From an uncultured Oscillospiraceae bacterium (GTDB lineage: Bacteria; Bacillota; Clostridia; Oscillospirales; Oscillospiraceae), in NCBI GenBank assembly GCA_947625285.1, contig CANQNS010000012.1:1-60815 (forward strand): a stretch of 60,815 nt of DNA. The letters are read 5' to 3'. Positions 25,438 through 43,461 of the stretch are shown here, in pieces. The translations under genes and the position numbers were made by a program. The stretch's first letter is position 1. The number at the start of each line of letters is the position of its first letter. The notes beneath the pieces are model-generated. The model ran no database searches. It was not told the DNA's origin and saw only the letters and a program-made list of their open reading frames with translations.

Positions 25438-25441
25438 AATA

Positions 25442-25511
25442 CGGCCGCTTTCAGCGGCCGCAGATTCAGAGAAGGATGGACTCCGCCCATAGCGAGAGTC
25501 CATCCTTTCTT
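25442..25511 (+). terminator. double terminator region after btuD
   Basis: Two hairpins follow btuD: CGGCCGC/GCGGCCG (25442-25460) and a perfect AAGGATGGACTC/GAGTCCATCCTT stem (25472-25507) followed by TCTTTTG. They separate btuFCD from the converging gene. Confidence 0.82.
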
Positions 25512-25528: not shown

Positions 25529-26509
25529 TTAGAACAGCGGGCGGATGGGCTTGCTCCACAGCCCTCCGGGCCGCCGCTGGAAGTCATTTTTCTCCAGCAG
25601 CGTGATGGCCGCCGGGGTGAGCGCCGCGTCCCAGCGGACCTCCTTCGCGCTCAACCGCCGCCCTCTGTATACGGCCTCTCCCAGCAGCTGCGTTCCATAT
25701 CCCTTGCCCCGCTCCCCCTCCGGGATGCACATATCAAGGATGTACAGCGCCCGGCCCCTGACGCGGTAGGTCACGCTCCCCACCGGGCGGCCGCGGCTGG
25801 TCCCCGTTATGACGCCGCTTTCCGGCACATCGTCAGGCTCGAAGAGGGGCTCGAAGCACAGGCTGTAATCCTCCATGTACTCCCGGCTGAACCGGGCGCG
25901 CTCCAGCCGGTTCGGTCTGCCGTCCGGCAGGTGCGAGCTGTCGTTGACGTACACCGGGCGGAACAGGCCGTCGTCGTAGACGAGCTTCGTGACGGCGGTG
26001 TTGTCGCCGTAGCCGGCCTCTATGCCCAGCCGTGCCAGGAAGGAACGGATGGCGATGGCGTGGGATACCGCCGCGACGCGGCGGCCTTGCTCAGCCCGGA
26101 CGATGCGCGTCACGGCCCGCTCCATCCGCCGGCCGGCCTCTATTCTGGACTCTCCGCCCGGCAGACAGTAACCCTCGCTGTCCGCCAGCCACCGCTCTGT
26201 CTCTTGCGGGAATCGGGCCAGCAGCTCATGCCAGGACGCGTCCTCGAACACGCCCATGGACTGCTCGCGCAGCTCCGGGTCCGTGCGCACCGCGAGCCCC
26301 TTCGGCGCGGCGATGGCCAGCGCGGTCTTTTGGGCCCGAAGCAGGGGCGAGGCGTAGACCGCGTCCACCGGGACCGGCTCGAACCGCCGCCGCAGGAACG
26401 TCAACTGCTCCCGGCCCCGGGGCGTCAGGTCCGTGTTGGTTATGCCATGGGTCCGATTGGTGATGTTGCCCTCCGCCTCCCCGTGCCGCACCAGATACAG
26501 CTCAGTCAT
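25529..26509 (-). CDS. histidine phosphatase fused to a GNAT-type domain
   Basis: 326 residues. The N-terminal 200 are a histidine (phosphoglycerate-mutase-type) phosphatase with LVRHGEAEGN (nucleophile His), ASPLLRAQKTA, LREQSMG (acid Glu) and VSHAIAIR (second His). Residues about 225-326 resemble a GNAT acetyltransferase: LYILDMCIPEGERGKGYG carries the R-G-x-G-x-G acetyl-CoA loop, and a C-terminal helix-strand follows (ITLLEKNDFQRR). The phosphatase likely removes phosphate from a small sugar or nucleotide intermediate. The GNAT domain is short and could be partly degenerate. It overlaps the upstream TrpA-like gene by 8 bases and is the last gene of the nucleoside-type cluster. Confidence 0.85.
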   Translation of the reverse strand: MTELYLVRHGEAEGNITNRTHGITNTDLTPRGREQLTFLRRRFEPVPVDAVYASPLLRAQKTALAIAAPKGLAVRTDPELREQSMGVFEDASWHELLARFPQETERWLADSEGYCLPGGESRIEAGRRMERAVTRIVRAEQGRRVAAVSHAIAIRSFLARLGIEAGYGDNTAVTKLVYDDGLFRPVYVNDSSHLPDGRPNRLERARFSREYMEDYSLCFEPLFEPDDVPESGVITGTSRGRPVGSVTYRVRGRALYILDMCIPEGERGKGYGTQLLGEAVYRGRRLSAKEVRWDAALTPAAITLLEKNDFQRRPGGLWSKPIRPLF

Positions 26510-27227
26510 TGGCGGCCGCGAGGTAGGAGGTCAGCACGCGCCGGAGCTGGCTCTCATCGTCCGCCGCCTTCATCAGCACGCCGCCGATGAACGCGCCGTC
26601 CGCGCCGGCGGCCCGCACGTCCCGGATATCCTCCGGCGTGCGGATGCCCACGCTGGCGTAGATCCTGGCCGTGACGCCGTGCTCCCGGAGGTACCGCACG
26701 CCGTCGGCGTAGGAGTCGATGCCCGGCCGCTCCGCCTGGCCCGGCAGGGGACGCACCTGGTAGGCGATCACATTCGCGCCTCTGGCCTTCTCCACCTCGT
26801 CGTCCGGCAGATGGGACTGCACATACTCGGACACCTCCAGTCCCGCTTCCGCCATCCGCCGCTTCTCTTCCTCGCTCGCGCCGACGATGGTCAGGTTCCG
26901 GATATCGTTTTGCGCGCATACGTCCAGAACATGCTCCAGGCCAAGCTGGCGCACCGTGTCCCCGTACAGCATCAGGTATATCTTCATGTCGGGGAACCGG
27001 GCGTGGACCTGGCAGATGCCCTGCAGATAGCTCTCATAGTCCTGATTCGTCCGCAGGCAGTATGCCATCCGCTCCCGGATGCGCTGCTGCTCCAGATAGG
27101 GGTCTTTCGAGGGAACGTCCAGCTGGATGGCGCGGCAGCCGCAGGCGTGATACATCCGCGCATAGCGCAGCCCATCTTTGATGGTCGGATAGCCAAAGTT
27201 CAGGTAACAAACCAGCTCAAAACTCAT
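26502..27227 (-). CDS. TrpA-like TIM-barrel protein, paralogue 1
   Basis: A 241-residue protein of the tryptophan synthase alpha fold. The start FELVCYLNFGYPTIKDGL matches TrpA (fxTAGYP), and the phosphate-binding end SVGIRTPEDIRDVRAAGADG then FIGG corresponds to the GFGISxPEQV and GSAIV phosphate site. The catalytic region differs: IQLDVPSKDPYLEQQR aligns with LELGVPFSDPLADGP, so the TrpA Glu49 is Gln and Asp60 is Glu. No trpB lies nearby. I infer a phosphorylated substrate but a different reaction from indole release, possibly isomerase, aldolase or binding. It begins one base after the BtpA-like stop and overlaps the phosphatase gene. Confidence 0.8.
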   Translation of the reverse strand: MSFELVCYLNFGYPTIKDGLRYARMYHACGCRAIQLDVPSKDPYLEQQRIRERMAYCLRTNQDYESYLQGICQVHARFPDMKIYLMLYGDTVRQLGLEHVLDVCAQNDIRNLTIVGASEEEKRRMAEAGLEVSEYVQSHLPDDEVEKARGANVIAYQVRPLPGQAERPGIDSYADGVRYLREHGVTARIYASVGIRTPEDIRDVRAAGADGAFIGGVLMKAADDESQLRRVLTSYLAAAND

Positions 27228-27228
27228 C

Positions 27229-28029
27229 TCACATCTCCCGCGCTTCCTTTACCGCCCGCATCACTTCGCTGGTCAGCTCAAAGTCGATGGGGCCCATGAC
27301 GCTGCCGCCGCGCTTGAAAGCGGAGCCCACGATGGCCCCGTCGATCAGCGGCATCTGTTCGGCGGCGTTCTCCCCGGAGAAGCCGCTGCCCACCAGCAGG
27401 GGGATCTCCACCCACCGGCGCAGTTGACGCAGCACGTCGATGGGCGCGGCGGAGCCCGTGTGCGCCCCGGTGACGATGATGGCGTCCGCGCCGTTCTCCA
27501 CGGCCATCCGGGCGCTCTCCTCCACGGAGATGCCGGGCACCAGCATATGGGAATGCTTCACCTGCACGTCGCACAGCAGCTTGATGCTCTCCGCGCCAAG
27601 CTGTCTGCGCTTGCAGAGCACCTGCCGGGCGCTGGGCATGACGATCCCGGCGGCCGTCATCACCGCGTCCACGAACACCGGGACCCGGATGAAGTCGGCG
27701 CCCACCGCATAAGCGATGGTGAGACTGGCCTCCCAGTCGCAGAACGCCGCGTCCACGCCCATCGGGACGGATATCTCCTCCCGCACCAGCGCGCTGACGG
27801 CCGCCAGGGCCGCGAACTGCTCCGCGTCCATATGTACGCCAACAGGGTCGTCGTTCATATTCTCCACCATCACCGCGTCCACGCCGGCGCGCTCCAGCGT
27901 CCGGGCGTCCTCCAGCGCACGCCGCTTCACGGCCTGCATGCTGCCGCCGTACTTCGCCGTCCCCGGCAGGGGCAGGCAATGTACCATGCCGATGATGGGC
28001 TTTTTGTCAAATAGATCGCTCATGTTCAT
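27229..28029 (-). CDS. BtpA/SgcQ-family TIM-barrel protein
   Basis: A 266-residue protein with the BtpA-family opening KPIIGMVHCLPLPGTAKYGG, then VDAVMVENMNDDPV, ADFIRVPVFVDAVMT, ENGADAIIVTGAHTG and LLVGSGFSGENA. The fold is a predicted phosphate-binding TIM barrel. Family members include cyanobacterial BtpA (photosystem I accumulation) and E. coli SgcQ in a carbohydrate operon; I know of no firm biochemical function. Two in-frame ATGs two codons apart compete as start, neither with a strong ribosome binding site. It heads the last three genes of the cluster, after a 148-base gap. Confidence 0.85.
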   Translation of the reverse strand: MNMSDLFDKKPIIGMVHCLPLPGTAKYGGSMQAVKRRALEDARTLERAGVDAVMVENMNDDPVGVHMDAEQFAALAAVSALVREEISVPMGVDAAFCDWEASLTIAYAVGADFIRVPVFVDAVMTAAGIVMPSARQVLCKRRQLGAESIKLLCDVQVKHSHMLVPGISVEESARMAVENGADAIIVTGAHTGSAAPIDVLRQLRRWVEIPLLVGSGFSGENAAEQMPLIDGAIVGSAFKRGGSVMGPIDFELTSEVMRAVKEAREM

Positions 28030-28140
28030 TCACCATGCCGGGCGGGTCCGGCAAGAGTCCAAGGGAAAATACCACCGCAGGATTTGTACTTTCCCCTTTG
28101 CGCGCCCAGAGAGCGCGGCGGGCTGTCCCGGATAAGCGAA

Positions 28141-28172
28141 AGCAGAGCGGAAGTCCGGCTCCCGCTCTGCTC
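28141..28172 (-). terminator. hairpin within the catabolic cluster
   Basis: On the minus strand GCAGAGCGG-type arms (AGCAGAGCGGGAG... / ...CCGCTCTGCT) close a stem followed by TTCGCTT. It lies just after the isochorismatase-type gene and may reduce read-through into the last three genes. The T-tract is poor. Confidence 0.5.
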
Positions 28173-28177
28173 TGCTC

Positions 28178-28747
28178 TCAAGACAGGCCCTGCGCGGCCA
28201 TCTCTATGAATCGGTCCGCTGTCACGGCTTTCGCCGTGTACTTATTGATGTCCTCACAGTGGAAACGGTTCAGCTCCTCCGTATTGGTGCTGACACAGTC
28301 GCTGATCAGAAACGTGTGGTAGTCCCGCATGGAGGCGTCGGTGGCCGTGGCGCGCACACAGCAGTTGGTCTTGGTGCCGATGACCGCCACCGTATCGACC
28401 CCCCACGCTTCCAGCAGGTCCTCCAGCTCCGTGCGAAAGAAACCGCTGGCGCGGGTCTTTTTCACCACCGTGTCCTCCGGCAGCACCGGAAGGCGCGCAT
28501 CCAGCTCCTCGCCGCCGGTGCCCTCCACGCAGCACATCCGCAGCCGCAGGTCCGGGTTCTGCCTGGCGGCATCCTCCCGGGACATGACCTGCTGGATGTA
28601 TACGATCTTCGCTCCCAGCTCACGCATCCTGTCGATGAATCGGACGCAGCGGGGCATCATCTGTCCGGTGGTCTCATAATAGATCTTCCCGTCGGGCCGC
28701 GTAAAATCGTTCACCAGGTCCACGACGAGGACCGCTGTCTTTCCCAT
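28178..28747 (-). CDS. isochorismatase-family cysteine hydrolase
   Basis: A 189-residue hydrolase. The catalytic triad is visible: Asp in VLVVDLVNDF, Lys in VVKKTRASGF and the Cys before Val in GTKTNCCVRATATDA. Relatives include nicotinamidase, N-carbamoylsarcosine amidase and the RutB ureidoacrylate hydrolase of pyrimidine breakdown. Within this nucleoside-type cluster a role in opening or deamidating the released base is plausible but not shown. ATG is preceded by AAGGAGAG, 10 bases after the alcohol dehydrogenase stop. Confidence 0.9.
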   Translation of the reverse strand: MGKTAVLVVDLVNDFTRPDGKIYYETTGQMMPRCVRFIDRMRELGAKIVYIQQVMSREDAARQNPDLRLRMCCVEGTGGEELDARLPVLPEDTVVKKTRASGFFRTELEDLLEAWGVDTVAVIGTKTNCCVRATATDASMRDYHTFLISDCVSTNTEELNRFHCEDINKYTAKAVTADRFIEMAAQGLS

Positions 28748-28757
28748 TGCTCTCTCC

Positions 28758-29951
28758 TTACAGGCAGTTGTTGAGGATCTCCACGATGTTCGCCCGGTTC
28801 AGGGGCACGAAGCAGTTGTTCATGGCGGCGCCGAAGGTGTTCATGATGTGATCCGCCATCTCGCCAAAGTGCTCATCGGTGATCTCCACGCCCTCGATCT
28901 GACTGAAGCGAGAGGGCATATCCATGTACTTGAGGTATTCGGCCGTCTTTTCAATGCCGATCTCGGCAAGCTGCTTGTCGGTCTTTCCCTCCGGGTCCAC
29001 GCCCCACACATTCACCGCATACTCGCGGAACTTGGGCATGGTGCTCTCAAACTGGGCGCAGTAGCGCAGCCAGGGGATGGTGATGACGGCCAGGCCGACG
29101 CCATGGGTGATGTCGTAGTACGCGCTGACCTCATGCTCGATCATATGGGAGGACCACATGATGTCGAACCCCTTGCCGATGACGCCCGTCAGCGCCCACA
29201 CGCTGGTGAGCAGCAGATTGGCCCGGGCGTTGTAGTTCTCCGGCTCATCATAGGCGATGTGTCCATAGTGGAAGGCGGTCTTCAGCATGGCCTCGCAGTG
29301 GCGGTTCTGATAGTAGGCGGTGGGGTCGTTGTTGAAGTAGTACTCGAACACATGGGAGATGATGTCGGTGACGCCCGCGGCGGTCTGGTTCCTGGGCAGC
29401 GTGAACAGGTTCTCCGGGTCGAGCACGGCGATCCTGGGCCGCATATCGGCGGTGCTGAAGCCCAGCTTCTCGTTGGTCTCCGGGTTGGAGATGACGGCGC
29501 TGGTATCCATCTCCGAGCCGGTGGCCGCGATCGTGGTGACGACCACCACCGGGAGCACCTTCACGCTGCCGGGGTTGGCCTTGCCCACGGCAAAGTCCCA
29601 CACGTCGCCGTCATAGTTGACGCCGGCGGCGATGGCCTTGCCGCAGTCAAAGCAGCTGCCGCCGCCCACAGCCAGCACGACCTCTATGCCGTGCTCACGG
29701 CACATGGCGATGCCCTTGCGGACCAGATCCACCTTGGGGTTGGGCTGCACGCCGGGCAGCTCCCAGAAGGTGAAGCCGTTGTTTTGCAGCATGGCCGTCA
29801 CCTGGTCATACAGCCCGGTGCGCTTGATGCTGCCGCCGCCGTATACGAACAGGACCTTCTTCCCGTAGGCCGCCATGGGCTCCGGGAGGTTTTGCAGCTG
29901 TCCCTTGCCGAACAGGATCTTGGTCGGTACGCACATCGTGATATTGTTCAT
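28758..29951 (-). CDS. iron-containing alcohol dehydrogenase (butanol dehydrogenase type)
   Basis: A 397-residue group III NAD(P)H-dependent alcohol dehydrogenase. The cofactor loop is VLAVGGGSCFDCGKAIA. The metal ligands are Asp and His in GVTDIISHVFEYYF and two His in HMIEHEVSAYYDITHGVGLA. It begins like YqhD/BdhA enzymes (PTKILFGKGQ). Such enzymes reduce aldehydes to alcohols or work in reverse. In this cluster it may dispose of an aldehyde made by an aldol cleavage, as alcohol dehydrogenases do for lactaldehyde in deoxy-sugar pathways. ATG follows GAAAGGATG. Confidence 0.94.
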   Translation of the reverse strand: MNNITMCVPTKILFGKGQLQNLPEPMAAYGKKVLFVYGGGSIKRTGLYDQVTAMLQNNGFTFWELPGVQPNPKVDLVRKGIAMCREHGIEVVLAVGGGSCFDCGKAIAAGVNYDGDVWDFAVGKANPGSVKVLPVVVVTTIAATGSEMDTSAVISNPETNEKLGFSTADMRPRIAVLDPENLFTLPRNQTAAGVTDIISHVFEYYFNNDPTAYYQNRHCEAMLKTAFHYGHIAYDEPENYNARANLLLTSVWALTGVIGKGFDIMWSSHMIEHEVSAYYDITHGVGLAVITIPWLRYCAQFESTMPKFREYAVNVWGVDPEGKTDKQLAEIGIEKTAEYLKYMDMPSRFSQIEGVEITDEHFGEMADHIMNTFGAAMNNCFVPLNRANIVEILNNCL

Positions 29952-29985
29952 AGTCTTTTCATCCTTTCAAAAAATAGATCTCGTT

Positions 29986-30717
29986 TTAATCCTCGCCGTG
30001 AGCGGCTCTGTGCAGAGCGGAGACCGTCTGGAGCAGCGCGGCTTCGTCGTCGAAGTGGTTCATGAAGCTGGACCCCAGGAACACGCCCTCGGCTCCCGCC
30101 CGGCGTATGCGCGCCACATCCTCCGGCGTGCGGATGCCCACGCCGCAGTAGATGGGCAGCTTCACGCCCCGCTGCTTCAGATAGCGGATGCACTTGTCCA
30201 GCGTGTCGCAGCCCTCGCGGAAGACCGTGTCCTTCCCCGGCTTGGAAGCCAGATACACCAGCCCCTTGTCCAGACGCAGGGCGAACTGCACCTGCTCCTC
30301 GGGCATATCGAACCCGATGGCCGCGGACAGGCCGATGCCGCTGTCTATCGCCGCCTGGTTCAGTTCCTCGTCCATGCCCACGCCCAGCAGGCACTCCATG
30401 CCGCTGTCCCGGTAGAATCTGGCGTAGTTCTCCCAGCCGATCCTGCGGATGGTATCGCCGCTGACCAGGTTCACCGTCATGCTCTGGGGATGGCTCGCCT
30501 TGAACTGGCCGATCCGCTCCAGATACGTGTCATAGTCGCCGCACTGCCACAGGGCGTACAGCATCGCCGCGCCGATGTGGACCGGCTCGTACACCGGCTC
30601 CGGGTAGGGCAGGCTGATCTCAATGCCGTCGCAGCCGCCCCGCAGGTAAAGCTCCGCGATCTCCATGCTTCGCTCCAGCGACGGGTAGCCCGTAGGCAGA
30701 TAACACATTAGTTTCAT
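29986..30717 (-). CDS. TrpA-like TIM-barrel protein, paralogue 2
   Basis: A 243-residue relative of tryptophan synthase alpha and of paralogue 1. It opens with KLMCYLPTGYPSLERSME and ends in the phosphate-site motif GVGIRTPEDVARIRRAGAEG then FLGSS. IEISLPYPEPVYEPVHIG aligns with the TrpA active site: the Glu49 equivalent is kept but Asp60 is Glu, and the indole-binding FSDP becomes YPEP. It may therefore retain a lyase or aldolase-type chemistry on a phosphorylated substrate. It sits between the PfkB kinase and the alcohol dehydrogenase, a logical place for a cleavage step that yields an aldehyde. No trpB is present. Confidence 0.82.
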   Translation of the reverse strand: MKLMCYLPTGYPSLERSMEIAELYLRGGCDGIEISLPYPEPVYEPVHIGAAMLYALWQCGDYDTYLERIGQFKASHPQSMTVNLVSGDTIRRIGWENYARFYRDSGMECLLGVGMDEELNQAAIDSGIGLSAAIGFDMPEEQVQFALRLDKGLVYLASKPGKDTVFREGCDTLDKCIRYLKQRGVKLPIYCGVGIRTPEDVARIRRAGAEGVFLGSSFMNHFDDEAALLQTVSALHRAAHGED

Positions 30718-30776
30718 TGCATCGCTCCTTCCTTGTACTCGTAGGTGATATCGTCAACGTGCCGCCGGAGCCGGTG

Positions 30777-31718
30777 TTACCGGGCGGCGTCCGCTCTCGC
30801 GGCATATCGCGCCAGCAGCCGGGTCTCGTCCGGCGAGCCCGTGATGCAGCCCAGCTGCTCGATGATGAACGATGAGGCCGTCGCGCCCAGCTTCGCGCAT
30901 TCCAGCGGGGCCATCCCCCTGGCCCAGCCGTAGAGGAACCCGGCCACAAAGCCGTCGCCCGCGCCGGTGCAGTCGGTCACGCGCTCTGCCGCCGTGGGCG
31001 GCAGCCGGACGCCCTGCGCGTCCTCCCGGGTGCCCAGCCAGATACCGTCGCTCCCCTTCGTCACGGCTACCGCCTCGGCGCGCCCTTTCCGGCCCAGGAG
31101 CTGCCGGATGTCCTCCAGGCCCAGCACTTGCTCCAGGATCTGCCGCTCATATTCGTTGCAGAACAGCAGCCTGGCCCGGGGGACGATCCGGCGCAGCAGT
31201 TCGTCCGAGAAGATGATCCGGTCCGAGCGCATGGAGAAGGCAAAGGGCGTGCCGTTTTTCTCCAGCTTCTCCGCAAAGGCGTCCACGTTCTGCTTGCTGT
31301 CCATGGAAAACACGGCCAGCTTTGCCGTTCGGAACACCTCGTCGGGCATATCGCAGGCGGGTATCTTACCGAAGTCGCCGCCCAGGATCGTCAGCCGCCG
31401 CTTGCTCTCGTCCTCGATGATATACGCCGTGGCCTTGCCGTCCATCACCTTCACGAACCGGGTGTCCACGCCCACGCTCTCCAGCTCCGTCAGGGCCGTG
31501 AGGCCGTAGGCGCTGTCCGTGGAGGTGAGGATGGCGCAGCGTCCCGCGCCCAGCTTCGCCATGCTGTAGACGATGTTCATCCCCGTCCCGCCAAAAAACA
31601 GCCTGTCAAAGTCGTTGTTCTGGATGTAGATGGTCTCGTCGTTGTCAGGGATGCGGTCTACCTTGAGGATGTAGTGCGTGGAGGCGTTGCCCAGCACCAG
31701 AAAATCATACGGCTCCAT
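30777..31718 (-). CDS. PfkB-family sugar or nucleoside kinase
   Basis: A 313-residue ribokinase-fold kinase. The substrate-side motif FFGGTGMNIVYSMAKLG and the catalytic motif VTDCTGAGDGFVAGFLYGW (base Asp in GAGD) are both intact, so activity is expected. Substrates in the family include ribose, fructose phosphates, adenosine, inosine and pseudouridine. Here it follows the nucleoside phosphorylase genes, overlapping by 14 bases, so a sugar, sugar 1-phosphate or nucleoside is likely. I chose the ATG (MEPYDF) with GGGAGGCGGGTC upstream; the longer frame adds nine residues. Confidence 0.9.
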   Translation of the reverse strand: MEPYDFLVLGNASTHYILKVDRIPDNDETIYIQNNDFDRLFFGGTGMNIVYSMAKLGAGRCAILTSTDSAYGLTALTELESVGVDTRFVKVMDGKATAYIIEDESKRRLTILGGDFGKIPACDMPDEVFRTAKLAVFSMDSKQNVDAFAEKLEKNGTPFAFSMRSDRIIFSDELLRRIVPRARLLFCNEYERQILEQVLGLEDIRQLLGRKGRAEAVAVTKGSDGIWLGTREDAQGVRLPPTAAERVTDCTGAGDGFVAGFLYGWARGMAPLECAKLGATASSFIIEQLGCITGSPDETRLLARYAARADAAR

Positions 31719-32514
31719 GACCCGCCTCCCCGTACTTCCCGGCAAAGCGGACGATACCCTCCAGCGAAACGGTACACAGGGCGTCCTCCATCTGTTTGAG
31801 CCGGGCCGGATCGGTGTGCATCATCTTCCGATTCCGGTCCATGACGACCGTCGCCAGACACAGCGACCCCACGGTGACGCCCATAAGATCGCCCACCTTG
31901 ATGAGCGCCGCCGACTCGAAATCCATGAACTTGAGCCCATAGTACCTGCCCCAAGCCTGATACTCCTCCACGGTGGTATAGCTGGGCATCGTCTGCCGGC
32001 GCTTTTCACCGAATTTGGTGATGGACAAAAACGGCATGCCGCCGTTGCTGCTCTGGACGATGCCGGTCACGGAGGGGAAGCCCATATCGGCCACCGCCTC
32101 CTCCAGACAGGACACCAGCCGGCTGTCCACCCGCGCCGGGTACTCCTCCGGCGCGTACTGCAGGCTCACCTGATCCGTAGCCATACCGGCCCGGGCGATG
32201 AGGAACTTGCCGAAATCGTTGTCGTCGAAGGGCGCGGCGGTGCCCATGCGGACGATCACCTTCGCCCCGCAGTCCACCAGCTCCTCCAGCATCTCGATGG
32301 CGGAGGGCGTGCCCATGCCCGTGGAGCTGACGGTCACCCGAACGCCCTTGTAAAGCCCGGTATAGGTGTTGTACGCACGGCTGAAGGCGATGTGCCGCGC
32401 CTGCTCCAGATGCCCGGACATCATCTCCGCCCGCCAGGGGTCGCCGGAGACCACTACATACTCGGCCACATCCTCCGGCGTCAGCTTGGAATACAGCGTC
32501 TTTCCGTTTACCAT
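31705..32514 (-). CDS. nucleoside phosphorylase (uridine phosphorylase type), copy B
   Basis: A 269-residue member of the NP-I family. The phosphate-binding GDPWRAEMM, the loop VSSTGMGTPSAIEML, the phosphate-contact Arg in VIVRMGTAAPF and the ribose-contact MDFESAAL are all present. The enzyme should split a nucleoside with phosphate into base and sugar 1-phosphate. The uridine-specific QERYD-type motif of E. coli Udp is not evident, so the base is uncertain. It is a tandem duplicate of the upstream gene (32516-33313), differing mainly in the substrate-side segments around VSLQYAPEEYPARVD and the C-terminus. Confidence 0.9.
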   Translation of the reverse strand: MVNGKTLYSKLTPEDVAEYVVVSGDPWRAEMMSGHLEQARHIAFSRAYNTYTGLYKGVRVTVSSTGMGTPSAIEMLEELVDCGAKVIVRMGTAAPFDDNDFGKFLIARAGMATDQVSLQYAPEEYPARVDSRLVSCLEEAVADMGFPSVTGIVQSSNGGMPFLSITKFGEKRRQTMPSYTTVEEYQAWGRYYGLKFMDFESAALIKVGDLMGVTVGSLCLATVVMDRNRKMMHTDPARLKQMEDALCTVSLEGIVRFAGKYGEAGHGAV

Positions 32515-32515
32515 C

Positions 32516-33313
32516 TTACCGCCCCTTTCCGTATCGCTCGTTGTACAGCCACGCGCCGTCCAGCGCGACGGTGCAAAGAGCGTCCTCCATCTGTTTGAGC
32601 CGGGCCGGATCGGTGTGCATCATCTTCCGGTCCCGGTCCATGATGACCGTCGCCAGGCACAGCGACCCCACGGTGACGCCCATGAGGCAGCCCACCTTGA
32701 TGAGCGCGGCCGACTCCATATCCATGAAGCGGAGGCCGTAAGCGCGGCCCCACGCCTGCTGCTCCTGGATCGTCTCATAGCGGGGCAGCATCCGCCGCCG
32801 CTTTTCACCGAATTTGGTGATGGACATGGACGGCCCGCCGCCGCCGGAGCTGTGCACGATGCCGGTCACGGAGGGGAACCCTCGCCCGGCCACCGCATCC
32901 TCCAGACAGGACACCAGCCGATCGTCCACGATCACCGGATAGTTGGCCGGCGCGTAGTGGATGCTCACATCGTCGCAGGCCATGCCGGAATCCGCGATGA
33001 GGAATTTGCCGAAATCGCCGTCGTCATAGGGCGCGGCGGTGCCCATGCGGACGATCACCTTCGCCCCGCAGTCCACCAGCTCCTCCAGCATCTCAATGGC
33101 GGAGGGCGCGCCCATGCCGGTGGAGCTGACGGTCACCCGCAGGCCCCGGTAGTCCCCGGTATAGGTGTTGAACTCACGGCTGAAGGCGATGTGCCGGGCG
33201 TTTTCCAGGTGCCTGGACATCATCTCCGCCCGCCAGGGGTCGCCGGAGATCACCACATATTCGGACACATCCTCCGGCGCCAGCTTGGAATACAGTGTTT
33301 TTCCATTTACCAT
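32516..33313 (-). CDS. nucleoside phosphorylase (uridine phosphorylase type), copy A
   Basis: A 265-residue protein starting MVNGKTLYSKLAPEDVSEY, almost the same as copy B, with the same catalytic set: GDPWRAEMM, VSSTGMGAPSAIEML, VIVRMGTAAPY and MDMESAAL. One base separates its stop from the copy B start. The two may have different substrates or form mixed hexamers. It directly follows the ABC permease gene, linking import to phosphorolysis. Confidence 0.9.
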   Translation of the reverse strand: MVNGKTLYSKLAPEDVSEYVVISGDPWRAEMMSRHLENARHIAFSREFNTYTGDYRGLRVTVSSTGMGAPSAIEMLEELVDCGAKVIVRMGTAAPYDDGDFGKFLIADSGMACDDVSIHYAPANYPVIVDDRLVSCLEDAVAGRGFPSVTGIVHSSGGGGPSMSITKFGEKRRRMLPRYETIQEQQAWGRAYGLRFMDMESAALIKVGCLMGVTVGSLCLATVIMDRDRKMMHTDPARLKQMEDALCTVALDGAWLYNERYGKGR

Positions 33314-33314
33314 T

Positions 33315-34238
33315 TCAAACCCTCTCGATCCTCTCAGGATTTTTCATGACCTTGGGATACTCGGTGATGACCAGGGTCACCAGCATCGCCACATAGGGAA
33401 GGATGCCGATCAACGAGGCCGTTGTGGCGCTCACGAAAGAGGTGATGCGGATCTGCAGCGCCTTGGCAAAGCCGAACAGCAGCCCGAACATGGTGGAGCG
33501 CACCGGCTTGCCCCGGCCGCACATGATGGCGGAAAGGCAGATGAAGCCGCGCCCGGCCACCATGCTGTCGGTGTACATGCCCAGATTCTCCACGGCCAGA
33601 TTGATCCCCGCCAGGGCGCAGAACACCGCCGAGATAGCCAGGGCCTTATAGCGGATGGCTTTGACCCGGATGCCCAGCGCCTCCGCAGCCTCCTCGTTCT
33701 CGCCGCAGACGCGCACATACATACCGAATCTGGTCTTATAAAGCACTACCGTCATCAGAGCCACCAGCACAAAGGAGAGATACGTCAGCGGCGTATGGTC
33801 GTTGAGGATGGCGCCGATAATGGGTATCTTTTCCAGCAGGGGCACGTGGATTATCATCTTCGCCGGATCGATCAGATCCGTGGCGATCAGGCTGCCGCTC
33901 TTTCCAAACAGCGCCTGGAGCAGAAACGGCACTACGCTGCTGGCGATCAGGTTGATAGCCAGGCCCACGAACACCGCGTTGCCGTGAAAGTCCAGGACGA
34001 AGCTGGCAAAGACCATCTTCACGGCCAGGCATACCACGATCGCCATCGCGCACCCGAACAGCACATTGCCTGTCAGCCTGGCGAACAGGATCGCGCTGAA
34101 CGCGCCGAAGGTCATGATGCCTTCATAGGTAAAGTTGACGACGCCGCAGCGGTCGGAAAACACGCCGCCGATGACGCACAGGAGGAACGGCGTCGCCATT
34201 GTAATGGTCAGATTCATCAGTTCCAGTACAAAAGCCAT
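33315..34238 (-). CDS. nucleoside-type ABC transporter permease 2
   Basis: A 307-residue permease of the BPD_transp_2 family (as in NupQ/YufQ and BMP-linked systems). It has eight or more membrane segments, including ATPFLLCVIGGVFSDRCGVVNF near the start (the DRxGVxNxxxEG family motif, here CGVVNFTYEGIM) and VAGRGFICLSAIMCGRGKPV later. It works with permease 1 and the double ATPase. It starts immediately after the permease 1 stop and ends one base before phosphorylase copy A. Confidence 0.92.
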   Translation of the reverse strand: MAFVLELMNLTITMATPFLLCVIGGVFSDRCGVVNFTYEGIMTFGAFSAILFARLTGNVLFGCAMAIVVCLAVKMVFASFVLDFHGNAVFVGLAINLIASSVVPFLLQALFGKSGSLIATDLIDPAKMIIHVPLLEKIPIIGAILNDHTPLTYLSFVLVALMTVVLYKTRFGMYVRVCGENEEAAEALGIRVKAIRYKALAISAVFCALAGINLAVENLGMYTDSMVAGRGFICLSAIMCGRGKPVRSTMFGLLFGFAKALQIRITSFVSATTASLIGILPYVAMLVTLVITEYPKVMKNPERIERV

Positions 34239-35327
34239 TTACGCCCCCTCCTTTTTCTTCTTCCCGGTCCGGGTCGAAGCCTTAGCCAGCAGCCGCTGCA
34301 CGGTCTCGGAATTTTCCCGGATGAACCGAATGGACAGAAACAGCATCAGCGAGCTCTGCACGATCTGGATGACCTCGGTAGGGATGCCGAATTTGACCTG
34401 CAGCGACACGCTGCCGAATTTGAACGCGCCCAGCATCACCGCCGCGACCACGGTGCCCACCGGGGAGGACCCGCCCAGCATCACCGCCGTCATGCCGTCC
34501 CAGCCCAGGCCGGGGTTGGCGGAGAAGGACGGGGTGAACCGGTGGTAGACCGACAGGATCACCGTGGCCCCCGCCAGTCCCGCGATGGCGCCGCTGAGCA
34601 GGAATATCTGCATGGTCCGCTTGCGTACGTTCATGCCCACCGCCTCCGCGAATTCCTGCCGGTAGCCGATGGTGTCCACCTTATAGCCGAAGGTGGTCCG
34701 ATTCATCAGGATCCAGACGAACACCCCCACCGCCAGGGCGATGAATATCCCCGCCGTGAGCGTATAGCCCGGGAACAGCAGCGGCAGCTCCGCCGACGGG
34801 GCCACCGGCTGGGTGGATGTATACTGATAGCTGTAGCAGAACGGTCCGTTCGTCAAAAAGTTGCAGATGGTGATAGCCACATAGTTGAGCATGATGGTAG
34901 TCACCAGTTCGTTTATGTGCAAATATGCCTTCAGCAGCGCCGGGATCAGCGCCCAGAGCGCGCCGCAGACCGCCCCGCACAGCAGGCACAGCGTCGTATG
35001 CAGCCAGGGAGGCAGCCCGGTGACGCTGAAGCCCAGGACCGTGGCGAAAAAGGCCCCCATGTAGAGCTGCCCCTCGCCGCCCATGTTGAACACGCCACCC
35101 CGGAACGCGATGACCAGGCACAGCCCCGTCATGATCAGCGGCGTGGCATACACCAGCGTGCTGCTCAGGCCCTTGAGATTGAAAAACGCGGACTGCAGGA
35201 TGGACCGGTAGACCCGGATGGGATCGGCCCCGTCCGCCCGTATGGCGATGGCGCCCAGGAGGAGCGCCGCCAGGACAGGCAGAACGATATTGAATACCCG
35301 CAAGCCCTTTTTCAGCAGCTTATCCAT
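34239..35327 (-). CDS. nucleoside-type ABC transporter permease 1
   Basis: A 362-residue permease resembling NupP/YufP. It has the family motif FRGGVFNMGGEGQLYMGAF and the loop LVTTIMLNYVAI, then FSANPGLGWDGMTAVMLGGSS near the end. About ten membrane segments are visible. The start codon lies inside the end of the ATPase gene (8-base overlap). Confidence 0.92.
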   Translation of the reverse strand: MDKLLKKGLRVFNIVLPVLAALLLGAIAIRADGADPIRVYRSILQSAFFNLKGLSSTLVYATPLIMTGLCLVIAFRGGVFNMGGEGQLYMGAFFATVLGFSVTGLPPWLHTTLCLLCGAVCGALWALIPALLKAYLHINELVTTIMLNYVAITICNFLTNGPFCYSYQYTSTQPVAPSAELPLLFPGYTLTAGIFIALAVGVFVWILMNRTTFGYKVDTIGYRQEFAEAVGMNVRKRTMQIFLLSGAIAGLAGATVILSVYHRFTPSFSANPGLGWDGMTAVMLGGSSPVGTVVAAVMLGAFKFGSVSLQVKFGIPTEVIQIVQSSLMLFLSIRFIRENSETVQRLLAKASTRTGKKKKEGA

Positions 35328-36900
35328 CGTTCCCCTCCTCTCCCGCCAGGCCCTCCATGCGCTTTGCGCCCACCATGTACAGGCCCAGCTCTTCCGCCGT
35401 CACATGACCCGCCTCAAAATGCCCGGTGATCCGGCCCCGGTACATGACTACGATCCGGTCGGACAGCGCCAGCACCTCCGACAAGTCCGAGGACACCAGC
35501 AGCACCGCCTTGCCCTCGTCCCGAATACGCAAAAGCTCATTTTGCACGAACTCCGTGGAGCCCAGGTCCAGCCCGCGGGTAGGCTGGCAGGCCAGCATGA
35601 CCTTCGGGTCCTGGCCCAGCTCCCGGGCGATGATGATCTTCTGCGCGTTGCCGCCGGACAGCTCCGATATATACGGGTCCTTCGAGGACAGACGGACCTG
35701 ATATTTTTCCACTTTCTCTTTTCGGTTTTCCTCCATGGCCTTCCGCTTCAGAAAACCGTGCCTGGAAAACCGCTCCTGCCCCTCGAAGCCGGCGATCAGG
35801 TTCTGGCTCACCTTCATCTCGGGACACAGGCCCCGGATATACCGGTCCTCCGGGATGATGCCGAACTTGTGCGCCTTCAGCTCATGGGGCCATACGCCGG
35901 TCACGTCGGCGCCGTCGACGGTGATACTTCCCTTGGTGTGCTTCATCAGGCCCGTGATCACCATGATCAGCTCCGACTGGCCGTTGCCCTCGACGCCGGC
36001 CACCCCAACGATCTCTCCGGCCCGCACATGCAGGCTGACGTCGCTGAGCACCTGCCGTCCGTTCCGATCCTTGGCGCACAGGCTGTCCACCCTGTACAGC
36101 ACCTTGCGGTCGTTGGCAAAGCGGCGTGTCCGGTCGATGTCCGCTACCTTCCGCCCCACCATCTTCTCCGCCAGCATCTCGGTGGTGGCGTCGTCATCGT
36201 TCGTCACGGTGACGACGTGTTTGCCCGCCCGGATGACGCTGATCGTGTCGGCGCAGCTCTTGACCTCGGCCAGCTTGTGGGTGATGAGCAGCACCGTCTT
36301 CCCCTCCCGCTTCAGGGCGTGGAGGTTCTCGATGAGCATATCCACTTCCTGGGGCGTCAGCACCGCCGTGGGCTCGTCCAGGATGAGCACGTCCACATTG
36401 CGGTAGAGCATTTTCAGTATCTCCAGCCGCTGGCGTTCGCCCACAGACAGGTCCCGCACCGGCCGGTCGATGTCCAGCATGAAGTCGAATCGGTCGACGA
36501 TCTGCTGGACCGCCTGTCTCTCCCGCCTGGTGTCGATGATCGGCAGACGCACCGTCCGGCCGCCCAGCTTCAGTTCCCGTTCTATCTCCGTGCCCAGCAT
36601 CAGGTTTTCATAGACGGTCAGGCTGGGCACCAGCTTGAAATGCTGGTGCACCATGCCTATCCCGTGGGCGATCGCGTCCAGGGGCGAGGAGAGCTTTACC
36701 GGCGCTCCGTCGATGCGTATCTCGCCCTCGTCCGGCCGGAAAAGACCGTACAGCATGTTCATGAGCGTGGTCTTGCCCGCCCCGTTCTCACCGATCAGCG
36801 CCCGTATCTCGCCCTCGCGCACCGCCAGATCGATGTGATCTACCGCGGTGAAATCACCGAAATATTTGGTCAGACCGACCGCTTCGATCTTGCTGCCCAC
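35320..36900 (-). CDS. nucleoside-type ABC transporter double ATPase
   Basis: A 526-residue protein with two ABC domains, as in NupO/YufO and sugar transporters of the RbsA type. Domain 1 (about 1-240) has Walker A GENGAGKTT, signature LSVGERQRLEILKML and Walker B VLILDEPTAVL. Domain 2 has a degenerate Walker A (GVEGNGQSE), signature LSGGNAQKIIIAREL and CQPTRGLDLGS in place of the usual Walker B region. The start is a GTG after AAAGGTGGG. The combination with a BMP-type binding protein points to nucleosides or related compounds. Confidence 0.93.
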   Translation of the reverse strand: MGSKIEAVGLTKYFGDFTAVDHIDLAVREGEIRALIGENGAGKTTLMNMLYGLFRPDEGEIRIDGAPVKLSSPLDAIAHGIGMVHQHFKLVPSLTVYENLMLGTEIERELKLGGRTVRLPIIDTRRERQAVQQIVDRFDFMLDIDRPVRDLSVGERQRLEILKMLYRNVDVLILDEPTAVLTPQEVDMLIENLHALKREGKTVLLITHKLAEVKSCADTISVIRAGKHVVTVTNDDDATTEMLAEKMVGRKVADIDRTRRFANDRKVLYRVDSLCAKDRNGRQVLSDVSLHVRAGEIVGVAGVEGNGQSELIMVITGLMKHTKGSITVDGADVTGVWPHELKAHKFGIIPEDRYIRGLCPEMKVSQNLIAGFEGQERFSRHGFLKRKAMEENRKEKVEKYQVRLSSKDPYISELSGGNAQKIIIARELGQDPKVMLACQPTRGLDLGSTEFVQNELLRIRDEGKAVLLVSSDLSEVLALSDRIVVMYRGRITGHFEAGHVTAEELGLYMVGAKRMEGLAGEEGNDG

Positions 36901-36967
36901 ATTGTCCCACCTTTCTCTCCGTTGCGATGCGCCAGGGGCGCACCCGCTCTCACCGCCGTGGGGCGGA

Positions 36968-38074
36968 TCATTTGTAGGGGTAACGCTCGCCGCCGTTGAA
37001 CAGAACGTTCCAGGGCTCCAGCTCGCCGCTGATGATCTTCTTGGACGTCTCGTCCTTCAGCGCCAGGAGCTTTTCAAAGTTCTCCTCATCGGTCACGTAT
37101 TCCTTGATAACGGACATATCGGTGACGCCCACCTCGCCCTTGGCAAAGCTCATGTAGTAGTCGCCGTCGTCGTCCAGAAGAGACTCGAGCTTATCATCCT
37201 TCCAGGCGCTCACGAAGTTATAGCACGCTTCATCGTTGGCAAGGCGGATACTGGTGAGAACGCTGCCTTTCTCCAGGGCGTCCTGGTTGGAATCGACGCC
37301 GATAGCCAGGGCGTTATTGAGCCGGCAGGCCTGCAGGCCGCCCAGACCGGCGGTGCCGCAGCAGAGCCACACCACGTCGCAGCCCAGGTTGTTTATCATG
37401 TTCTCGGTGATGGTCTTGACGTTCTCGGTGTCGGTGAAGCCGCCGTTGTAGTCAACGATGATCTCACAGTCGGGATTCACCGACCGGGCGCCCTGCTTGA
37501 AGGGATCCTCATAGGCATAGAAGCCGGAGGACTCCAGGCCGAAGATAACGCCGATCTTGCAGCCGGTCTGATCAGCCACGCCGTCGATGATCTCATTGCC
37601 GTCCGTAGCCACGAAAGCCGCCAGCACACCCCCGAGATAGGAGGAGTTCCAGATCTCGCCCATGGTGCCGATCAGGTTGGGGATGTCCTTCTCGCCGGTC
37701 GCGCCGATCTGGACATAGGTGGTGTCGGGGTACATGGGCGCCACGTCGTAGACGAAGGACAGCGCGCCGTACTCCATGCAGATAACGAGGCCGTAGCCCT
37801 CCTCGCCCAGCTGACGCAGATAGGTGTCCGTGTCCGCGGCTTCCACGGGCTCAACACAGGTGAAGTCCACGCCAAAGTCCTCCTTGGCCCGGACCATACC
37901 GGCGTAGCAGTCGTCGTTCCAGCCCTCGTCGCCCAGACCGCCGACCTGCACGATCAGAGCGGCCTTCTTGCTGAAATCGTCCTCGGCATCCTCCTTTTTG
38001 CCGGACGAGCCGCAGCCGGTCAGCAGGCACGCCAAAACCACAAGAACAAGGAAAACCGCGATGGATCTTTTCAT
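36968..38074 (-). CDS. BMP-family substrate-binding lipoprotein
   Basis: A 368-residue lipoprotein. The signal ends in the lipobox LLTGC (Cys21), so it is lipid-anchored on the outer face. The mature part is of the Bmp/PnrA type: KAALIVQVGGLGDEGWNDDC, VVWLCCGTAGLG and AIGVDSNQDALEKGSVLTS. Family members bind purine and other nucleosides, and the linked phosphorylases support this, but the exact ligand is open. It is the first gene of the large operon, 66 bases ahead of the ATPase, with AAAGGAGCAG before the ATG and a palindromic operator just upstream. Confidence 0.93.
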   Translation of the reverse strand: MKRSIAVFLVLVVLACLLTGCGSSGKKEDAEDDFSKKAALIVQVGGLGDEGWNDDCYAGMVRAKEDFGVDFTCVEPVEAADTDTYLRQLGEEGYGLVICMEYGALSFVYDVAPMYPDTTYVQIGATGEKDIPNLIGTMGEIWNSSYLGGVLAAFVATDGNEIIDGVADQTGCKIGVIFGLESSGFYAYEDPFKQGARSVNPDCEIIVDYNGGFTDTENVKTITENMINNLGCDVVWLCCGTAGLGGLQACRLNNALAIGVDSNQDALEKGSVLTSIRLANDEACYNFVSAWKDDKLESLLDDDGDYYMSFAKGEVGVTDMSVIKEYVTDEENFEKLLALKDETSKKIISGELEPWNVLFNGGERYPYK

Positions 38075-38102
38075 GGTGTTCTGCTCCTTTCGGATAAAAT
38101 TT

Positions 38103-38158
38103 ATGATGTCATAACATCATGTTGACATGATTCTAGCACACATATTTCTCAGATGCAA
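38103..38158 (-). promoter_or_regulatory. promoter and operator of the nucleoside-type operon
   Basis: On the minus strand TTGCAT (38153-38158) and TAGAAT (38130-38135) are 17 bases apart. Immediately downstream is the inverted repeat ATGATGTCATAACATCAT (38103-38120), arms of 7 with a 4-base centre. A related sequence, ATGATGTTATCACA, lies in front of gntR, and a further partial copy, GATGTCATAA, is at 38237-38246. This pattern suggests the GntR protein controls both. Confidence 0.8.
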
Positions 38159-38244
38159 GCGTCTTTACCCTGCCCAAATCATTTTCCAGCAATTCGTACA
38201 TTTTCGACTTTTATTTTGTGCACAACTTACAAAATAGATGTCAT

Positions 38245-38280
38245 AAAAAAGTGGCACAGCATCGCGTGGATGCTGTGCCA
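38245..38280 (-). terminator. gntR terminator
   Basis: A perfect 12-bp stem, TGGCACAGCATC/GATGCTGTGCCA, is followed on the minus strand by CTTTTTT. It makes gntR a separate transcript from the transport operon. Confidence 0.92.
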
Positions 38281-38305
38281 TTGGGATATTTTGTTTTTCC
38301 GCGGC

Positions 38306-39028
38306 TCACTCAGCGAATACGGCGGGCAGGATGTCCGTGCGCCAATAAAGGCGCGTGGTCTCCACCAGTTCCTTCCGCCCGTCCGGGGCAACGCAGTTTA
38401 CCCGGACAAGCGAACGCAGCAGCGGCACCGGTTCTTTTATCTCCATCAGCCGTGACACGCTCGTGTCCGGCATGACCGCCATCATGGTCGTCTCCCGCGA
38501 CATCCAGAGCTGGTAATAATAGTGCTCCCGGAGGATCTTGCCGATGGACTGGGTGGTGAAGTCGTAGCTTTCGATGCCCTCCACATAGCGGTAGCGGTAA
38601 AAGCTGGTCTCAAAGGACACCGGCGTGCCGTTGGCCGTGTACAGCCGCTCGTAAAGAAAGTACCGCTCGCCTTCCTCAAGGTCATACGTCCGGGCGGTCT
38701 GCTTATCGCATGTCACGGTCTCCGCCCGCAGAACGACGCGCTTGGCGTCGAACCCCCGGGAGACCAGCTCCGCCAGACAGGAGCTGGTGCTGAAGGACAC
38801 GCCCCGGTCGCTGGGCACGCCCACGTATGTGCCCTTGCCCTGGACCTTGTAGATCAGCCCCTCGGCGCACAGATCGTCCAGCGCCTTGCGGACGGTGATC
38901 CGGCTCACCTGGTACTCGTTTTGCAGCTGCTGCTCCGACGGCAGAAGCTCCTGCGCCTTGTACTGCCCGCTCTCGATCTTCTGCAAAATGCTGCTCTTGA
39001 CCTGATAATATTTTGGAAACAGTGCCAT
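38306..39028 (-). CDS. GntR-family regulator (HutC/UTRA type)
   Basis: A 240-residue regulator. Residues about 8-70 are the GntR winged helix (LPSEQQLQNEYQVSRITVRK then ALDDLCAEGLIYKVQGKGTY). The rest is a UTRA effector domain (FSTSSCLAELVSRGFDAK and ERYFLYERLYTANGTPVSFE). UTRA domains bind small molecules such as sugars or phosphorylated intermediates. It is the first gene of the region, read towards the operon it likely controls, but it is separated from it by a terminator. Confidence 0.93.
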   Translation of the reverse strand: MALFPKYYQVKSSILQKIESGQYKAQELLPSEQQLQNEYQVSRITVRKALDDLCAEGLIYKVQGKGTYVGVPSDRGVSFSTSSCLAELVSRGFDAKRVVLRAETVTCDKQTARTYDLEEGERYFLYERLYTANGTPVSFETSFYRYRYVEGIESYDFTTQSIGKILREHYYYQLWMSRETTMMAVMPDTSVSRLMEIKEPVPLLRSLVRVNCVAPDGRKELVETTRLYWRTDILPAVFAE

Positions 39029-39059: not shown

Positions 39060-39080
39060 TAACGTTATGATGTTATCACA
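39060..39080 (-). promoter_or_regulatory. candidate GntR operator in front of gntR
   Basis: TAACGTTATGATGTTATCACA contains ATGATGTTAT followed by CACA, matching the reverse complement of the operon operator (ATGATGTTATGACA) at 13 of 14 positions. It lies about 32 bases upstream of the gntR start codon, consistent with autoregulation. Confidence 0.6.
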
Positions 39081-39195: not shown

Positions 39196-39232
39196 AACTG
39201 GGTATTTTAATATGCCCAGTTCGTGGTATAGT
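39196..39232 (+). promoter_or_regulatory. pyridoxal kinase promoter region with inverted repeat
   Basis: AACTGGG (39196-39202) and CCCAGTT (39215-39221) form an inverted repeat around an AT-rich centre, just ahead of a TATAGT -10 box (39227-39232). No good -35 box is visible, which could mean activator dependence. ACTGG is repeated further upstream near 39173. Confidence 0.5.
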
Positions 39233-39264: not shown

Positions 39265-40107
39265 ATGAGACAGAAACGCATCGCGACCATACAGGACCTG
39301 TCCTGCTTCGGCAAGTGTTCGCTGACGGTGGCCCACCCCATCATGTCCGCCATGGGGCTGGAGGTGTGCCCGGTGCCCACGGCCATACTGTCCACCCACA
39401 CGGCGGGCTTCACGGGCTGGACTTTCCGGGACCTGTCGGCGGACCTGACCGCCATCGCCAGGCACTGGAAGAGCCAGGGCCTGACCTTTGACGGCATCAG
39501 CACCGGGTATTTGGGCACCGTTGACATGATCGACATGGTGGAGTATTACTTCCGGCTGTTCCCGGAGGCGGTGAAGGTGGTGGACCCGGTGTTCGCGGAC
39601 AACGGGAAGCTGTACCCGGCCTTCGACATGAACTACGCCGCCGGGGTAGCGCGGCTGTGCGGGCACGCGGACGTGATCGTGCCCAATCTGACGGAGGCTG
39701 CCTTCATGCTGGGGGAGGAATACGTCCCCTCCGGCTACGACGAGGAGTACATCCAGGGCCTTTTGAAGCGGCTCACGGGCCTGGGCTGCCGGGTGGCGGT
39801 AGTCACCGGCGTGCGCTATGACGACGCCCACCAGGGGGCCGTGGCCTATGACAGCTCGAAAAACGCCTATTTCCAGGCCTTTCAGGAGCACATCGACGTG
39901 TCCTTCCACGGCACCGGCGACATCTTCACCTCCGCCCTGGCGGGGGCCGGCGTGCTGGGCAAGCCCCTGCCCGACGCGCTGCGCATCGCGGTGGACTACA
40001 CCGTGGCCTGCATCCGGGCCACCATGCCGGACAAGGCCGAGCACTGGTACGGGGTCAGGTTCGAGGACTGCCTGCCCGGTCTCATAGAGGCCCTGCGGGA
40101 AGGCTGA
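39265..40107 (+). CDS. pyridoxal/pyridoxamine kinase
   Basis: A 280-residue kinase of the PdxK/PdxY type in the ribokinase superfamily. It opens RIATIQDLSCFGKCSLTVA, the typical start of Firmicute pyridoxamine kinases, and continues with VDPVFADNGKLY, VIVPNLTEAAFML and the catalytic motif SFHGTGDIFTSALAGA (Asp of GTGD). It phosphorylates vitamin B6 vitamers to supply pyridoxal phosphate. ATG is preceded by TTGGAGGCGCAGTC. It is a single-gene unit with a terminator shared with the converging gene. Confidence 0.92.
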   Translation: MRQKRIATIQDLSCFGKCSLTVAHPIMSAMGLEVCPVPTAILSTHTAGFTGWTFRDLSADLTAIARHWKSQGLTFDGISTGYLGTVDMIDMVEYYFRLFPEAVKVVDPVFADNGKLYPAFDMNYAAGVARLCGHADVIVPNLTEAAFMLGEEYVPSGYDEEYIQGLLKRLTGLGCRVAVVTGVRYDDAHQGAVAYDSSKNAYFQAFQEHIDVSFHGTGDIFTSALAGAGVLGKPLPDALRIAVDYTVACIRATMPDKAEHWYGVRFEDCLPGLIEALREG

Positions 40108-43384: not shown

Positions 43385-43461
43385 AGCCGCATCCTCCCGC
43401 AAAATGGTTTGTGGGACTAGTATACAATGTCTTGCTGTCTATGGCAACGGAGCGTTTCACA

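Follow-up and report, generated by a model that had tools for sequence, protein, structure and literature searches.

Between positions 25529 and 39028 of a 60,815-base stretch of DNA from an uncultured Oscillospiraceae bacterium (contig CANQNS010000012.1 of assembly GCA_947625285.1; the whole stretch is referred to here as the window), 14 open reading frames (ORFs), all on the minus strand, encode thirteen proteins plus a GntR-family regulator. They belong to a catabolic operon that is real, conserved and apparently undescribed. An eleven-gene core, comprising the regulator, a four-part BMP-type ATP-binding cassette (ABC) importer, an isochorismatase-type hydrolase (Isoch), a PfkB-family kinase, a uridine-phosphorylase-family enzyme (PNP), a BtpA/SgcQ-family barrel, an iron-containing alcohol dehydrogenase (FeADH) and a TrpA-like barrel, is kept together over a wide phylogenetic distance, and the window is an expanded variant of this core. 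The operon may serve to break down a nucleoside-like compound by the scheme set out below, a reading to which we give somewhat less than an even chance.

Conservation of the operon

A scan of 84,980 species with an alignment of the BtpA protein gave 208 confirmed relatives, and the best 80 of the 208 loci were examined. Besides the window, 16 of these 80 carry the operon. Twelve hold all eleven core genes in the identical order GntR, BMP, ATPase, permease A (PermA), permease B (PermB), Isoch, PfkB, PNP, BtpA, FeADH and TrpA. These complete carriers are Clostridium pascui, Proteiniclasticum, Youngiibacter, 'Clostridium minihomine', Oribacterium, Anaerotruncus, Faecalispora, 'Amazonia', two Caproiciproducens strains and two metagenome-assembled genomes, one assigned to Mollicutes and one to Clostridiales. 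Locus L024 lacks GntR only, L038 ends at BtpA at a contig edge, and L017 and L019 have the gene set in a reshuffled order. The GntR gene was called in 15 of the 16 loci, while the four importer parts (a PF02608 lipoprotein, a double ATPase and two BPD_transp_2 permeases) are found in all 16 as well as in the window.

Two of these loci were found first with an independent bait, the first TrpA-like protein of the window (TrpA1). Among 295 genomes of the order, at E<=1e-15, this protein revealed one further carrier, G025 (locus L024), and among 35 genomes of the genus another, G705 (locus L017); both hold the other genes of the set. Three weaker matches in the genus (about 1e-9) group with true TrpA.

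Co-occurrence in other genomes was one check proposed in an earlier reading made from the letters of the window alone (the sequence-only reading), and the genes do stand together in 16 of the best 80 BtpA loci. The conserved set expected there held for the importer, a phosphorylase, BtpA and a TrpA-like protein, but the second phosphorylase, the second TrpA-like protein and a histidine phosphatase-GNAT fusion (HP-GNAT) turned out to be extras of the window lineage. A published pathway with the same gene set, which by that reading would have spoken against it, was not found in the open-licence literature, where subscription papers are largely missing.

Layout and regulation in the window

The positions proposed for the thirteen genes and the GntR gene were borne out by an ORF check, and profile matches upheld every domain assignment made earlier. 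Tight packing is seen at most junctions, where genes overlap or lie 0-1 base apart, but overall it is a little looser than had been claimed, with wider gaps at five of them: BMP-ATPase (67 bases), PfkB-TrpA1 (59), TrpA1-FeADH (34), FeADH-Isoch (10) and Isoch-BtpA (148). Coordinates given below refer to the minus strand unless stated otherwise.

The regulator (38306..39028; PF00392 1.5e-18, PF07702 3.9e-20) is of the GntR (UTRA) type. The shared operator-like sites noted earlier are present as a pair of ATAACATCAT candidate operators detected by motif search, one upstream of GntR (39067..39076) and one upstream of BMP (38111..38120, plus strand). These are the only two matches in the 60,815 bases (0 of 100 shuffles), a statistic that is only suggestive because the motif was picked after both upstream regions had been inspected. 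A terminator-like hairpin lies 3' of GntR (38252..38280; fold z -5.0), so that the stretch from BMP through HP-GNAT is probably a transcript of its own; another terminator-like hairpin (25440..25462) lies 3' of the last operon gene. A strong hairpin inside the 148-base Isoch-BtpA gap (28141..28171; fold z -3.5) has no T-run. A search for promoter-like sites upstream of BMP came up empty, and in the region as a whole their total is about the shuffled mean.

Divergently from GntR, a pyridoxamine-kinase-type gene (PF08543) occupies 39265-40107 on the plus strand. Upstream of it lies a near-perfect palindrome of its own, at 39196-39221. The operon's neighbour at 40169-43402 (minus strand) encodes roughly 1,070 residues, with matches to DUF5107 and TPR.

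Importer and phosphorylases

The importer consists of a BMP/PnrA-like substrate-binding lipoprotein (36968..38074; PF02608 1.8e-34), a double ABC ATPase (35320..36900; two stretches of PF00005, ABC_tran), permease A (34239..35327; PF02653, BPD_transp_2, 7.3e-42) and permease B (33315..34238; PF02653, 1.1e-26). In profile comparison the lipoprotein is nearest to those of the PnrA type, which bind nucleosides. The window protein is 40% identical to its counterpart in L017 and 24-28% identical to the 15 others.

The two uridine-phosphorylase-like enzymes of the window (32516..33313, PF01048, PNP_UDP_1, 6.5e-23; and 31705..32514, 8.8e-22) share 78% identity and represent a duplicated gene. The uridine phosphorylase equivalog model TIGR01718 (cut-off 280.3) is not reached by these copies (132.7 and 121.7) or by the core enzyme of L018 (161.0). 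Seven residues of E. coli Udp, which we take to contact phosphate and ribose, are G26, R30, R48, R91, T94, E198 and E196. The first six are kept in every covering row of 18, and the E196 position is Asp in 18/18. The base pocket of the E. coli enzyme is presumably formed by Phe162, Gln166 and Arg168. Core phosphorylases have Phe162 in 16/16, Gln166 in 12/16 and a basic residue at 168 (R, K or H, with His counted as basic) in 16/16, while both window copies lack all three. The families of importer and phosphorylase fit the nucleoside reading proposed earlier. Given that the base pocket, the importer protein and, by its extra copy, the barrel set are altered in the window, the window lineage may have another substrate than the core operon.

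Kinase, dehydrogenase and hydrolase

The PfkB-family kinase (30777..31718; PF00294 2e-34), for which a simple codon-score script makes 31718 a likelier start than 31745, has a profile nearest to the MJ0406 structure. All 18 members match both archaeal ribose-1-phosphate kinase models at E<=0.001 (50.5 bits for the window protein), though not discriminatingly.

The core FeADH is nearest to the alcohol dehydrogenase domain of a bifunctional acetaldehyde/alcohol dehydrogenase (1.6e-113). That of the window (28758..29951; PF00465 7.8e-50; best model PRK15138) is of the PRK15138 type, a subfamily different from that of the 15 other loci in the comparison. Judged by these assignments, the gene is swapped in the window, with a predicted alcohol dehydrogenase retained.

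Isochorismatase-type hydrolases have what we take to be an Asp-Lys-Cys catalytic triad. Candidates for its three residues were seen by inspection in 17 hydrolase rows, the window protein (28178..28747; PF00857 3.5e-39) included; the L026 hydrolase was called without its N-terminus and its row does not reach the triad Asp. The window enzyme scores 55.6 with the RutB model TIGR03614, below the cut-off of 377.95. Its nearest profiles are uncharacterised isochorismatase-fold hydrolases, N-carbamoylsarcosine amidase-related proteins and nicotinamidases. The hydrolase is part of every core operon.

The last gene of the window operon encodes HP-GNAT (25529..26509; PF00300, His_Phos_1, 1e-48, followed by PF00583, 1.8e-7). 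Together with the second TrpA-like gene it is common to the window and the sister genome G705. The catalytic families of the operon look intact.

The TrpA-like barrels

Two TrpA-like barrels are encoded in the window, TrpA1 (29986..30717; PF00290, Trp_syntA, 2.6e-22) and TrpA2 (26502..27227; PF00290 1.1e-15). Their assignment as tryptophan synthase alpha was considered and rejected, since they score below the trpA cut-off and form a separate clade. Indeed, the TrpA-like copies of the operon fall below the TIGR00262 cut-off (102.35) in all 16 genomes searched, four of which have a true trpA above it elsewhere. In the tree, which leaves out the truncated L022 row, 20 TrpA-like rows, two of them from Erysipelotrichaceae loci of the phosphotransferase system (PTS) type, are set apart from the 5 reference TrpA rows at 100/100 support. 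By sequence, then, these proteins are a clade separate from true TrpA.

We take Glu49 and Asp60 to be the catalytic acids of TrpA, and G213 and G234-S235 to be positions of its phosphate site. In the rows of the TrpA1 type that cover these positions (17/17; the L022 row does not), residue 49 is always Glu and residue 60 always acidic, and this type also keeps the G213 and G234-S235 positions. The three rows of the TrpA2 type, that of the window among them, have Gln at 49. With the acids and the phosphate-site positions of TrpA1 kept, a retained retro-aldol reaction is proposed, in which triose phosphate would be released, with a new leaving group.

Other TrpA-like genes occur as well. Upstream of the operon in the sister genome G705, L012:9172-11611 holds a third, strongly diverged copy and an alpha/beta hydrolase (PF20091). 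Two Erysipelotrichaceae loci, L040:3743-9812 and L043:4352-10792, combine a TrpA-like gene with BtpA, without phosphorylase or kinase; both also hold a DeoR-like regulator and PTS genes (identified by eye), and L043 a beta-lactamase-fold protein.

The BtpA barrel and its distant neighbourhoods

The window BtpA (27229..28029; BtpA domain 2.5e-64) exceeds the TIGR00259 cut-off (208.1 bits versus 153.4). Its predicted structure is a confident (beta/alpha)8 barrel (predicted local distance difference test 95.1, predicted template modelling score 0.92). Glu56, Asn57, Arg115, Asp154 and Lys158 are among the positions invariant across 40 sequences; in the model these five residues sit in or just past the C-terminal strand ends, the usual location of the active site in such barrels. 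Fold comparison ended in a tie among many phosphate-binding barrels, and no reaction for the BtpA/SgcQ family was found in the open-licence literature searched.

Neighbours within 4.5 kb of BtpA in the 64 non-core loci were compared with those in a ring at 5.5-10 kb; for the operon families, counting was by six-frame reading of all 80 loci, since the gene-calling script had missed BtpA in some distant ones. PfkB stands near BtpA in 34/64 loci versus 5/64 in the far ring (7.5 versus 1.6 per 100 kb). RbsD is near in 7/64 (L044, L047, L048, L059, L082, L090 and L095) versus none far. Curated cut-offs are exceeded by the two RbsD genes and the one ribokinase that were checked, L048 having both a D-ribose pyranase and a ribokinase. 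A PurD-like gene is near BtpA in 5/64 (L034, L035, L036, L049 and L020) versus none far.

In L034 and L036 the PurD-like gene stands straight after PfkB and BtpA, and in L034 it is followed by a dihydropyrimidinase-like gene. Two archaeal loci (L041:18-3791 and L046:4566-14770) hold two BtpA genes, a phosphorylase and PfkB, L046 with a BMP importer in addition. Four Chloroflexi loci (L051, L056, L061 and L064) hold GntR, two BtpA genes and a BMP importer, followed in L051 by a phosphotriesterase-family protein and PfkB.

Deo enzymes in the carrier genomes

Searches for Deo enzymes and for ribose 1,5-bisphosphate (R15P) isomerase covered 16 operon genomes, with L024/G025 left out. DeoC is above cut-off in 16/16 and DeoB in 12/16, which means that canonical (deoxy)ribose has an ordinary route in most carriers. 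The operon as a substitute for missing DeoB and DeoC was rejected as a general reading on the same counts. The sequence-only reading had stressed the absence of these partners. Neither is an operon gene, and deoB was not found in the window's own genome (97% complete), but that genome does have deoC. The operon probably handles a non-canonical sugar or base.

A proposed pathway and its alternatives

In the scheme that we favour, the BMP-type importer would bring in the compound, and the uridine-phosphorylase-family enzyme would split it into base and sugar 1-phosphate. PfkB would phosphorylate the sugar again, to a pentose 1,5-bisphosphate of the kind formed in the pentose bisphosphate pathways of archaea. 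BtpA could then rearrange or dephosphorylate this product, and the TrpA-like barrel would cut it by a retro-aldol reaction into triose phosphate and a two-carbon aldehyde, to be reduced by FeADH with re-oxidation of NAD(P)H. The isochorismatase-type hydrolase would free the base of an amide or ureido group, and GntR would govern the operon through the ATAACATCAT sites. The hydrolase may open the base, as proposed earlier, and the substrate may be a modified nucleoside. That BtpA is a ribose-phosphate enzyme which, with a TrpA-derived aldolase, makes up a bacterial nucleoside route of the pentose-bisphosphate type, without RubisCO, known R15P isomerase, DeoB or DeoC, is a more doubtful proposition.

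A number of observations weigh against the scheme. None of 397 other genomes sampled from the phylum showed the operon. The BtpA of L020, which has the second-highest identity to that of the window (58%), has none of the partner genes nearby; the same is true of L032 (about 45%). Around non-core BtpA genes there is no enrichment of phosphorylases (3/64 near and 2 far, 0.6 per 100 kb in either zone), and no TrpA, isochorismatase or FeADH gene stands near BtpA in any of the 64 loci. The 18 PfkB members also hit models for ribokinase, nucleoside kinase and 5-dehydro-2-deoxygluconokinase, and the window protein reaches no curated cut-off. R15P isomerase (TIGR00511) is over cut-off in 0/16 operon genomes, with matches below it in 5/16, so that BtpA or TrpA would need to perform the isomerisation step. 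Loop 6 of TrpA is not kept in the TrpA-like proteins, and their alignment has no invariant or nearly invariant lysine, which makes a Schiff-base aldolase unlikely. Finally, the core operon has no phosphatase, and sugar chemistry leaves the amidase without explanation.

One alternative, in our view unlikely, assumes that ordinary ribonucleosides are degraded by a route of the pentose-bisphosphate type to dihydroxyacetone phosphate or glyceraldehyde 3-phosphate and a C2 aldehyde, as a redox-balancing bypass even beside DeoB. The operon shares its phosphorylase and kinase families with the halophile pathway (PMC9700705), the core phosphorylases keep Phe162 (16/16) and mostly Gln166 (12/16), and deoB was not found in 4/16 operon genomes, that of the window included. 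However, the other 12 have deoB and all 16 deoC, R15P isomerase is nowhere over cut-off in them, and the conserved amidase and two barrels would be superfluous for ordinary ribose. Quite unlikely, to our mind, is a substrate from outside the nucleosides, be it another kind of N-glycoside or a sugar amine (an Amadori product, for instance), with a phosphorylase homologue in a new role. It would agree with the match of 18/18 PfkB members to fructoselysine 6-kinase as well, and with the Erysipelotrichaceae loci, where a TrpA-like gene, PTS genes (by eye) and BtpA occur without a phosphorylase; yet the importer is nearest to lipoproteins of the nucleoside-binding PnrA type and the phosphate and ribose residues of uridine phosphorylase are kept.

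Less probable again is a model that makes the base the target. Here the cell would salvage a carboxamide or ureide nucleoside, the hydrolase would remove its amide, and the base would be modified by kinase, barrels and dehydrogenase. The presence of the hydrolase in every core operon and its profile, near N-carbamoylsarcosine amidase-related proteins, nicotinamidases and uncharacterised isochorismatase-fold hydrolases, are consistent with this model, but PfkB, BtpA and TrpA-like proteins are families of the sugar-phosphate type and BtpA accompanies RbsD and ribokinase elsewhere. A loose neighbourhood of independently functioning genes, to which the hairpin-bearing 148-base gap and the altered gene order of L017, L019 and the window might point, is hardly credible when all eleven genes stand in one order in twelve loci and two more are incomplete.

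BtpA/SgcQ proteins are widespread. In this operon BtpA has defined partners, namely an importer, a phosphorylase, a kinase and a dehydrogenase, and it occurs in culturable bacteria, which makes the BtpA reaction directly addressable. Should the nucleoside scheme be true, it would add a nucleoside route that recruits a relative of tryptophan synthase for sugar-phosphate cleavage, and would explain where, in anaerobic and gut communities, some nucleosides end up.

Comparison with known systems

In the classical deo pathway (DeoA/Udp/DeoD, DeoB, DeoC) a nucleoside phosphorylase is the first step, as proposed here. DeoB and DeoC, in contrast, are not operon genes, and are encoded elsewhere in most of the carriers searched. 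All four parts of the importer are of the same families as in BMP/PnrA-type nucleoside ABC importers; here they are joined to a catabolic gene set, a combination that we have not seen described. Tryptophan synthase alpha belongs to the same fold family, and the TrpA1 type shares its Glu49/Asp60-type acids, G213 and G234-S235. The operon proteins differ from it in their sub-cut-off scores, their separate clade and the loss of loop 6, and no TrpB is encoded among the operon genes of the window.

A closer parallel is the non-carboxylating pentose bisphosphate pathway characterised in halophilic archaea (Sato et al. 2022, PMC9700705). A uridine-phosphorylase-family enzyme, PfkB, the formation of triose phosphate and a C2 aldehyde, and reduction of the latter are common to both, the last steps being predicted on the side of the operon. 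In place of the R15P isomerase, the HAD-type ribulose 1,5-bisphosphate phosphatase and the FucA-type aldolase of the halophiles, the operon has BtpA and TrpA-like barrels, as well as a different alcohol dehydrogenase; no operon gene of the window matches a FucA-type aldolase or a HAD-type phosphatase. The isochorismatase-type hydrolase, the BMP importer and the GntR regulator go beyond the halophile pathway. On this analysis the operon would resemble that pathway at both ends and depart from it in the middle. As to the BtpA/SgcQ family itself, the operon protein is a member by both Pfam and NCBIfam models, and represents a sub-group with partners of its own.

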